Of a stretch of DNA of 44,346 bases, positions 23,761 through 25,871 are shown one piece after another. The position numbers were made by a program, and so were the translations under genes. Under the pieces are notes generated by a model that saw nothing but the letters and a program-made list of their open reading frames with translations, ran no database searches and had not been told where the DNA came from. The DNA comes from an uncultured Clostridia bacterium (lineage in GTDB: Bacteria; Bacillota; Clostridia; Oscillospirales; Feifaniaceae), in assembly GCA_904420075.1 (NCBI GenBank), contig CAJFTX010000054.1, positions 1 through 44,346 on the forward strand, written 5' to 3'. Positions within the stretch are counted from its first letter, which is position 1. Each line of letters starts with the position of its first letter.

Positions 23761-25236
23761 TCACAGTTCTATCCGTCCGGTCGCAATCTTTTTGCAGAAG
23801 GCCGCGTCGTGCTCCACAAAGAGCAGCGTCGCCCCGCTGGAGAGCAGCATCTCCTCGAGCTGCATCCTGGCGAAGAGATCGAGAAAGTTCAGCGGCTCAT
23901 CCCAGAGGTAGAGATGCGCCGCCTCCGCAAGGCTGCGCGCGAGCAGCACCTTCTTCTTCTGCCCGTCGCTGAAGGCGGAGAGCTCCTTTTCAAACTGCTC
24001 CCGGGGCAGTCCCAGCTTGCGCAGCAGGGTGAAGAAATCGGTTCGATCCAGGCCGCAGCGCTCCGCATAGTCCGCCGGTGTCCCCCGGAGTTTGTCAGTC
24101 CCCTGCGGCAGGTAGGAGAGCACCACTCCCGACGCGAGGGTGAGCATCCCCTCTCGACCGGGCGGCGGAGTGTCGAGTCCGCGCTGCGCCGCGACCGCGC
24201 GCAAAAGGCTCGACTTGCCCGAACCGTTCCCCCCGGCAAGCGCGACCCGCTCCCCCGGGTGCAGCGCAAACGAGAGCGGCGCAAAGAGCGGACGTTCTCC
24301 GTAGGAGAGGGTGAACTCCCGCGCGGAGAGCAGCTCCCCCCGCCAGGGGAGCGGGCGCAGCATGAGCGTGTCCTGCTGCTCGATCTCGCGCAGAAGCGAG
24401 CGCTTCTCTTCCGCCGCCCGCTCCCTTCTCGCCTCCACCGCTTTCGCGCGCTTCATCATCTTGGCCGCCTTGTGGCCGATCGCGCCGCGGTCGGGGCGGA
24501 GGCCCGCGATCTTCGTCCCCTTTTTGCTGCGCTCCACCGCATCCGCCCAGCCGGAGGTCCGGCGCGCGGCGGCGGAGAGCCTGTCGATTTCCCCTCTGAG
24601 CCGCCGGTTCTGCGCAAGTTCCGCCTCGTTTCGCGCCTCAAACCGCTCATACCACTGGGAGAAGGTCCCCTTCGAGACCTCGATCTCCGAGCGGCCGAGC
24701 GAGACGATGTGGTCGACGCAGCCGTCGAGAAAGGCCCGGTCGTGCGACACGAGGAGAAATCCCCGCTTGCCTCGGAGATAGGCTGCGACCTGCTCCCGCC
24801 CTCTCCCGTCGAGGTGGTTGGTCGGCTCGTCGATGAGCGGAAAGGCGTCCTCCTCGAGAAAGAGCGCTGCGAGCTGCACCTTGGTCCGCTCGCCGGGCGA
24901 GAGGGTGGCAAGCGGCCGCCAGAGCATCTCCTCGGAGAGTCCCAGAAGCGAGAGCTCCCGCGCCAGCCGCCAGCTGTCCTCCGGCGGCGCGAGCATGCTC
25001 GCGGTCCACTCCCCGGGCGGACTTCCCGGAAAGTAGCGGCAGGGGACGCTTTTCGTCACCGCGCCGCTCGGAAGCTCCCCCGCGATCAATTTCAAAAGAG
25101 TGCTCTTTCCTCTGCCGTTGCGCCCGCAGAGGCCGCAGCGCCAGTCGGTGTCGAGCGTGAGGTCGAGATGTTCGAATACGTTGTGGCAGCTTCCCTCGTA
25201 GGAGAAGGTGAGATCTGAAAGCTGAATCTGAGACAT
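23761..25236 (-). CDS. ABC-F ribosomal protection protein, Lsa/CplR-like
   Basis: 491 residues from ATG 25236 with TGGAGGG upstream; a longer frame to 25341 runs through the terminator and is not used. Two ATPase domains without membrane segments: first Walker A GRNGRGKS (38-45), signature LSPGERTKVQLA and Walker B with DEPTNHLD; second Walker A GGNGSGKSS, signature FSDGQKKKVLLA and DEPLNFLD. The N-terminal DTDWRCGLCGRNGRGKS and the DEPLNFLD variant resemble the Lsa and CplR group, which displace pleuromutilin, lincosamide and streptogramin A drugs from the ribosome. Both catalytic Glu are present. It lies downstream of aroQ and has a leader peptide and terminator that suggest drug-induced attenuation. 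The drug profile is inferred from the family. Confidence 0.88.
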   Translation of the reverse strand: MSQIQLSDLTFSYEGSCHNVFEHLDLTLDTDWRCGLCGRNGRGKSTLLKLIAGELPSGAVTKSVPCRYFPGSPPGEWTASMLAPPEDSWRLARELSLLGLSEEMLWRPLATLSPGERTKVQLAALFLEEDAFPLIDEPTNHLDGRGREQVAAYLRGKRGFLLVSHDRAFLDGCVDHIVSLGRSEIEVSKGTFSQWYERFEARNEAELAQNRRLRGEIDRLSAAARRTSGWADAVERSKKGTKIAGLRPDRGAIGHKAAKMMKRAKAVEARRERAAEEKRSLLREIEQQDTLMLRPLPWRGELLSAREFTLSYGERPLFAPLSFALHPGERVALAGGNGSGKSSLLRAVAAQRGLDTPPPGREGMLTLASGVVLSYLPQGTDKLRGTPADYAERCGLDRTDFFTLLRKLGLPREQFEKELSAFSDGQKKKVLLARSLAEAAHLYLWDEPLNFLDLFARMQLEEMLLSSGATLLFVEHDAAFCKKIATGRIEL

Positions 25237-25241
25237 AAAAA

Positions 25242-25289
25242 ACCCTCCAAACAGAAAAAATGGGCCGCGGGAAAACCACCCGCGGCCCA
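25242..25289 (-). terminator. leader terminator directly before the ABC-F gene
   Basis: TGGGCCGCGGG and CCCGCGGCCCA form an 11-bp stem with a seven-base loop (25261-25289), followed on the minus strand by TTTTTT, then the ribosome binding site. Outside the stem, ACCCTC (25299-25294) can pair with GAGGGT (25247-25242) of the ribosome binding site, so the closed form would also hide translation initiation. Confidence 0.82.
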
Positions 25290-25367
25290 AAAAGAGGGTC
25301 GGATGAGACGATCTCCCGCAGAGCGAGCGGCAGGAGGGCATACCACTCCCTTAGAAACCGCCCGGAC

Positions 25368-25391
25368 TTACTTGCGAGAAATCATGCGCAT
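25368..25391 (-). CDS. candidate 7-residue leader peptide of the ABC-F gene
   Basis: ATG 25391 to TAA 25368 encodes MRMISRK. It has GAGGTG five bases upstream and lies about 80 bases before the leader terminator. Short Arg/Ile/Met-type leader peptides ahead of antibiotic-resistance ABC-F and Erm genes are where drug-bound ribosomes stall to favour an antiterminated transcript. Too short for normal gene calling; expression is inferred. Confidence 0.6.
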   Translation of the reverse strand: MRMISRK

Positions 25392-25427
25392 CCTTTCACC
25401 TCACCTCTCCAATTTTTCTCTACGATA

Positions 25428-25871
25428 TCACTTTGCGCCGCCGCTGTCAAGCGCCGCAAGGCAGCGCAGCGCCTCCCCGTAGCCCGCAAACCCGAGCCCC
25501 ATAAAGGTCTTGACACAGGCGGCGCGCACATAGGAGACCTGCCGGAAGTCCTCCCGCTTTGAGACGTCCGAGATGTGCACCTCCACCGCGGGCAGGCCCA
25601 CCGCTTTCAGCGCGTCCAGCAGGGCGACGCTGGTGTGGGTGTAGGCCGCGGGATTGATGACAATCCCGTTGTACTGCCCGAGGGCCTCCTGGATCGCGTC
25701 CACCAGCGCCCCCTCGTGGTTCGACTGAAAGAACGAGACCGAAACCCCCAGCTTCTCCGCCTCCCCGCGGATATAGCGGAGCAGATCGTCGTAGGTCTCG
25801 CCGCCGTAGATCTCCGGCTCGCGCCGACCGAGCAGGTTGAGATTCGGTCCATTGATTACCAGAATATGCAT
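25428..25871 (-). CDS. aroQ: type II 3-dehydroquinate dehydratase
   Basis: 147 residues, normal length. It converts 3-dehydroquinate to 3-dehydroshikimate. Family marks are MHILVINGPNLNLLGRREPEIYG, where the Tyr is the catalytic base on the mobile loop, FFQSNHEGALVDAI, INPAAYTHTSVALLDAL with the catalytic His, and VEVHISD. The ATG shares one base with the stop of the upstream aroE-aroK gene (TGATG), so translation is coupled. It is the last biosynthetic gene of the aromatic operon; no terminator separates it from the ABC-F leader 36 bases downstream. Confidence 0.96.
   Translation of the reverse strand: MHILVINGPNLNLLGRREPEIYGGETYDDLLRYIRGEAEKLGVSVSFFQSNHEGALVDAIQEALGQYNGIVINPAAYTHTSVALLDALKAVGLPAVEVHISDVSKREDFRQVSYVRAACVKTFMGLGFAGYGEALRCLAALDSGGAK

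Follow-up and report, generated by a model that had tools for sequence, protein, structure and literature searches.

The intergenic span between the end of aroQ (25428) and an ABC-F gene (25236–23761), on the minus strand of the 44,346-nucleotide stretch analysed here (the window), very probably acts as a ribosome-mediated attenuator of this Lsa-like ABC-F gene. By computation, the parts of the element were identified and found to be conserved and to covary, and a switch was predicted from them. The same arrangement is found in about 120 relatives across Clostridia and Paenibacillaceae, and in about 119 an equivalent very short ORF was located in the same place.

Layout of the leader and its gene

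The span holds every element that a sequence-only reading of this DNA had listed: a leader ORF encoding MRMISRK behind a ribosome-binding site, a GC-rich terminator followed by the ribosome-binding site of the ABC-F gene, and an outer ACCCTC/GAGGGT pairing over the latter site. Absent from that reading was the pairing of the leader ORF with 25319–25301, which forms the core of the switch. The features are as follows.

25422–25450, minus strand: promoter-like TTGACA-17-TATCGT with TG extension (sigma-70-like, extended -10); candidate from a consensus scan, 10/12 matches
25392–25410, minus strand: ribosome-binding site of the leader ORF (GGAGAGGTGAGGTGAAAGG); sequence, anti-SD duplex of -8.2 kcal/mol
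25368–25391, minus strand: leader ORF (ATGCGCATGATTTCTCGCAAGTAA), MRMISRK plus TAA, with its ATG at 25391; sequence and model match
25374–25381, minus strand: arm A (TTTCTCGC), within the leader ORF; A:B pairing and covariation
25312–25319, minus strand: arm B (GCGGGAGA), partner of A (off) or of the terminator loop and D (on); covariation and test of own versus foreign partners
25301–25308, minus strand: B' (TCTCATCC), partner of the leader SD/ATG (off) or of arm C (on); folding and partner tests
25294–25299, minus strand: anti-Shine-Dalgarno ACCCTC, in the outer stem enclosing the terminator; extended helix
25279–25289, minus strand: arm C, 5' arm of the terminator; folding, scan, two-sided C:D changes
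25261–25271, minus strand: arm D, 3' arm of the terminator; scan, covariation of C:D and B:D
25255–25260, minus strand: U-tract of the intrinsic terminator, TTTTTT; sequence and terminator scan
25243–25248, minus strand: ribosome-binding site of the ABC-F gene, GGAGGG; sequence
23761–25236, minus strand: Lsa-like ABC-F ribosome protection gene, 491 aa; NF000167 and NF000355 profiles, PDB match

The candidate promoter (25450–25422) partly overlaps the end of aroQ. The terminator, TGGGCCGCGGG-TGGTTTT-CCCGCGGCCCA (25289–25261), consists of an 11-bp stem followed by TTTTTT, and within the next 12 nt lies GGAGGG (25248–25243), ahead of the gene's ATG at 25236. ACCCTC (25299–25294) can pair with GAGGGT (25247–25242) in an extended helix of -10.3 kcal/mol. 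In the repressed state the SD site of the leader is predicted to be paired with B', and coupling of these two segments is seen in relatives. The leader region as a whole folds more stably than its shuffled counterparts (z -4.88), none of 200 shuffles being equally stable.

The ABC-F protein is matched by the NCBIfam Lsa profile NF000167 with an E-value of 1.6e-173 and 578 bits, under the cut-off of 750, and by the general profile of ribosomal-protection ABC-F proteins, NF000355, with 394 bits, over the cut-off of 380. By far the nearest solved structure in a PDB search is Lsa(A) (7nhk, E 2.4e-122). Judged from its sequence, the protein is Lsa-like rather than a named Lsa allele, and its gene is the sole one of this kind found in the genome. 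Lsa proteins are directed against pleuromutilins, lincosamides and streptogramin A. Since the gene is Lsa-like, these compounds are the drug class expected by homology, and the choice of the sequence-only reading was right in this respect.

Upstream of lsa, on the same strand, aroQ, a fused aroE-aroK ORF, pheA, aroC, aroA and aroB are aligned between 25428 and 31534 (gene names taken from the translations). The attenuator must also halt readthrough from this operon.

Leaders of related lsa genes

Relatives were collected from 80 loci of public genomes and from 75 genomes of the order, giving 146 distinct upstream regions, that of the window included. In Clostridia the search for leaders was guided by the expected features. 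In nearly all annotatable regions, a ribosome-binding site and an ATG open an ORF of 1–8 codons, which is enclosed in a long hairpin, and a terminator immediately precedes the gene.

For the leader hairpin a covariance model was constructed from 32 relatives, leaving out the window; its single match in the 44 kb is at the window site (29.7 bits, E 2.3e-4, model E-values being rough). Within the 1.9-Mb genome this site ranks first, with an E-value of 0.0099 that is modest at genome scale. In 290 genomes the model yielded 49 matches, nearly all directly upstream of lsa genes; the leaders of the close relatives G002 and G005 were not found by it. Four other matches were checked: that in L162 precedes an lsa start and that in L161 an ABC exporter, the one in L163 is situated at a contig end, and the one in L164 is probably false. 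Ahead of the exporter, a permease-ATPase rather than lsa, stands a comparable leader (MIYVSC) together with a terminator (L161:2449–2582, minus strand). A search of the window against Rfam, at gathering as well as relaxed thresholds, returned two tRNAs only, the sub-threshold matches being implausible, and no riboswitch, T-box or leader family. The RNA family of the lsa leaders is not in Rfam.

Among mobile genes, the examined lsa(E) and lsa(B) plasmids gave no match to the covariance model. On an E. faecium plasmid (L165), lsa(E) is located behind IS1216 and lacks the lsa leader, which suggests that its control may have been lost. In two loci (L162 and L140) a second, longer leader ORF is situated between the short-leader terminator and lsa, and in two others (L166 and L167) such an ORF lies upstream of lsa. 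These second leader ORFs share a VTHxxLxI-like motif (MNSAEQIVTHDSLRIVSVPFGEIYTE; on plasmids MVLELDVTHELLRISRYNLSNIYGVI before lsa(B) and MSNLDTIVTHVILCISR in Priestia). L162 seemingly carries two attenuators in tandem. A weak model match (E 0.02) was observed in Subdoligranulum (L168), where the leader reads MRI.

Covarying arms and the predicted switch

Pairing was counted in an alignment of 53 leaders. Two-sided changes occur at 12/12 pairs of the terminator C:D. Arms A and B are paired in 92.7% of the cells and arms B and D in 93.2%; in both cases the covariation was matched by none of 500 shuffles, and sliding the register abolishes both signals. At the four-way columns 45/166/294/320 most leaders have T-A-A-T or T-A-G-T, and the window displays the rarer variant C-G-G-C, owing to which its leader has Ser-Arg in place of the Ser-Cys of others. 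When the complete 53-sequence alignment was folded with RNAalifold, the terminator alone was recovered, probably due to the variable interior of the leader hairpin, and the named arms were counted instead.

The remaining pairings were examined by asking whether a segment fits its own partner better than those of relatives, in permutations that ignore relatedness. Arm B prefers the loop and D of its own terminator over those of other leaders (0/2000 permutations), and its 3' extension likewise prefers its own loop (0/2000). Coupling is also evident between the leader SD/ATG and B' (0/2000) and between B' and C (3–4/2000). B:C, which served as the control, showed no coupling (838/2000 and 906/2000), and a trp-like antiterminator formed by B and C was rejected. 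Because the pairing of B with the loop and D is nested with that of B' and C, the two make up a single long antiterminator, which is able to start on C before D is made. The outer stem is enriched in 100 relatives compared with shuffled left arms (KS p 3e-15).

From these pairings the following sequence of events may be envisaged. When no drug is present, the leader SD/ATG would pair with B', and A with B, so that C and D are free to form the terminator; in any readthrough mRNA the ribosome-binding site of the gene would be paired with ACCCTC. A pleuromutilin, lincosamide or streptogramin A would trap the ribosome at the start codon of the leader, so that the SD, the ATG and arm A are covered. 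B' would then pair with C while C is being made, and the helix would extend as B pairs with D and the loop of the terminator. Too little time would be left for the terminator to form, ACCC would be drawn off the ribosome-binding site of the gene, and Lsa would be made. Drug arrest at the start codon and the resulting induction are suggested by homology and by the literature.

The switch was modelled by blocking the leader from -15 to +15 of its start site, which mimics an initiating ribosome, with a block of the same size at +33 to +63 as control. With the leader start blocked and D 5 nt short of its end, the antiterminator was predicted in 95/108 relatives, namely in 47/59 clostridial and 48/49 Paenibacillaceae leaders. 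The terminator was preferred in 104 of the 108 unblocked leaders, and the control block led to the antiterminator in 7/108. Comparative folding of relatives, which the sequence-only reading had proposed as a check, turned out in its favour. Once D was complete, blocked leaders retained the antiterminator in 17/59 clostridial and 46/49 Paenibacillaceae cases. The window follows the clostridial pattern: in step-wise folding with a blocked leader the antiterminator persists up to the point where about 3 nt of D are lacking, and then gives way to the terminator. A mutually exclusive antiterminator that a ribosome on the uORF sets free is thus found by covariation and folding across the family, and in the window for incomplete D only.

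In the equilibrium fold of the full window leader, with the leader blocked and all of D exposed, the terminator returned and antitermination was not seen. Antitermination in the window must therefore be kinetic or partial. When termination occurs, several bases at the RNA end are covered by RNA polymerase, which makes the folding in the window compatible with regulated readthrough; the effect on readthrough may be partial here. It could be argued that the drug merely opens the ribosome-binding site of the gene and that the terminator acts constitutively or leaks. The stability of C:D in the window (-25.3 kcal/mol) indeed exceeds that of B:D (-16.9 kcal/mol), the terminator is retained in the full-length fold, and in cplR translation attenuation suffices alone for repression (PMC10201436). 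However, the family-wide covariation of B with the loop and D, together with the switch predicted in 95/108 relatives, argues for regulated termination, and control by translation alone is unlikely. Dual control by termination and by masking of the ribosome-binding site, as the sequence-only reading had proposed, is backed by the comparative evidence from C:D, A:B, B:D, the outer stem and folding.

The initiating ribosome as putative sensor

The leader peptides comprise 0 to 7 residues after Met and their sequence is not conserved; examples are MRKISC, MRNFSCR, MIILSC, MKKFSC, MINFSCK, MRI, MIR and MR, next to MRMISRK in the window. As far as can be judged from sequence, the leader codons follow RNA pairing and not the peptide. 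In the Paenibacillaceae loci (L014–L088), about 200–230 nt upstream of lsa, a stop codon directly follows the ATG in 39/49 leaders (TAA 24, TAG 9, TGA 6), against 5% stop triplets in the background. Where the immediate stop is missing, the frame mostly reads into Ser-Cys-stop (Fisher p 4e-5). The leader finder demanded a stop within 12 codons, so that its comparison of frames is biased; the Paenibacillaceae leaders were counted again regardless of reading frame. The immediate stops and the link with the frame indicate that selection maintains a start and a stop with hardly anything, or nothing, between them. RNA pairing favours some of the start-stop letters; the single TGG and the link with the reading frame argue for selection on translation.

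Since the peptide is not conserved and start-stop leaders prevail in Paenibacillaceae, drug sensing most likely relies on the initiating ribosome, arrested by a pleuromutilin, lincosamide or streptogramin A, and not on a stalling peptide. The sequence-only reading had assumed stalling on the leader peptide. Arrest of a ribosome on the leader is retained from this proposal, whereas the peptide sequence, which varies freely and is absent from most Paenibacillaceae leaders, is probably not what is sensed. Sequence-specific arrest of the elongating, drug-bound ribosome by the nascent MRMISRK peptide itself, as in macrolide leaders, could account for the weak consensus in Clostridia, where codon 2 is CGC or CGT in 31/70 leaders and a Ser-Cys end is frequent, and in vmlR an MRK variant was a poorer inducer than MIN (PMC9226507). 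But the Ser-Cys/Ser-Arg end is read from arm A and fixed by pairing, the Arg codon CGC of the window being a compensating variant of A:B and B:D, and neither R-x-R nor R-x-K, motifs of the macrolide-stalling kind, is present in MRMISRK. Considering also the variable length of the peptides and the 39 leaders that encode none, such a mechanism is very unlikely.

That the terminator merely ends the aro operon, with a chance ORF and with lsa expressed constitutively or by readthrough, is hardly tenable: lying 139 nt downstream of the stop codon of aroQ and on the strand of that gene, it must also stop aro transcripts, but a separate promoter-like site is present, covariation ties the terminator to the leader region, and relatives carry the same leader without a nearby aroQ. 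The linkage to aroQ is peculiar to the window among 111 loci, and the leader thus belongs with lsa and not with the aro operon.

In kind, the mechanism is known from vmlR and cplR (PMC9226507, PMC10201436). As in those leaders, an ARE-ABCF gene lies directly downstream in the window, a very short uORF is equipped with a ribosome-binding site, and an intrinsic terminator is placed between them. The vmlR leader of B. subtilis is, by its description, alike in having a three-codon uORF within an anti-antiterminator hairpin, a terminator and a masked ribosome-binding site (PMC9226507). It is induced by lincomycin and retapamulin, and the start codon and SD of its uORF are essential; arrest at initiation is reported for retapamulin and expected for lincomycin (PMC9226507). 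In contrast to the window, its gene encodes the ARE2 protein VmlR and not Lsa, and a NusG pause has been reported (PMC9226507). The cplR leader of C. difficile likewise combines a very short uORF (MRI; consensus MR[I/M]) with a terminator and a masked SD, and both layers, termination and SD masking, were demonstrated by mutation (PMC10201436). Start-codon arrest is likely in cplR as well, and MRI leaders also occur in the lsa-leader family (L089, L168). CplR, however, belongs to ARE1, and its SD lies inside the terminator stem, whereas that of the window is part of the outer stem around the terminator. Enterococcus lsa(A) shares the protein family and a predicted short uORF (MAGN), but the uORF consensus, drawn from homologues at least 80% identical to LsaA, is a different one (PMC10201436). 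Drug arrest at the start codon of a uORF is also found in are5sc/tiaA of Streptomyces (PMC12421871) and toiL of E. coli (PMC12121999), which concern other genes and phyla; toiL moreover employs Rho and senses macrolides as well, at a position past its start (PMC12121999).

The novel part would be the start-stop leader found elsewhere in the family. Ribosome profiling has revealed start-stop ORFs in E. coli and Campylobacter, and no report of one acting as a drug sensor was found in a literature search missing most subscription papers. It appears somewhat more probable than the contrary that the lsa leaders form a widespread, undescribed attenuator family in which the initiating ribosome alone is the sensor, the ORF being reduced in Paenibacillaceae to AUG-stop, so that no peptide bond is made. 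If this is true, inducers would be limited to drugs arresting the ribosome at the start codon, which are those that Lsa removes; the start-stop ORF would serve as a drug-class filter and the peptide would be dispensable.

In conclusion, the leader offers an explanation, based on structure and open to testing, for the probable induction of lsa-type genes by pleuromutilins, lincosamides and streptogramin A in Clostridia and Paenibacillaceae. It bears on the field's open question whether conserved sequences of tiny leader ORFs reflect peptide-specific stalling: in lsa leaders RNA pairing accounts for the conserved letters, and the majority of Paenibacillaceae leaders encode no peptide at all. Searches that demand a conserved encoded peptide probably miss start-stop leaders.
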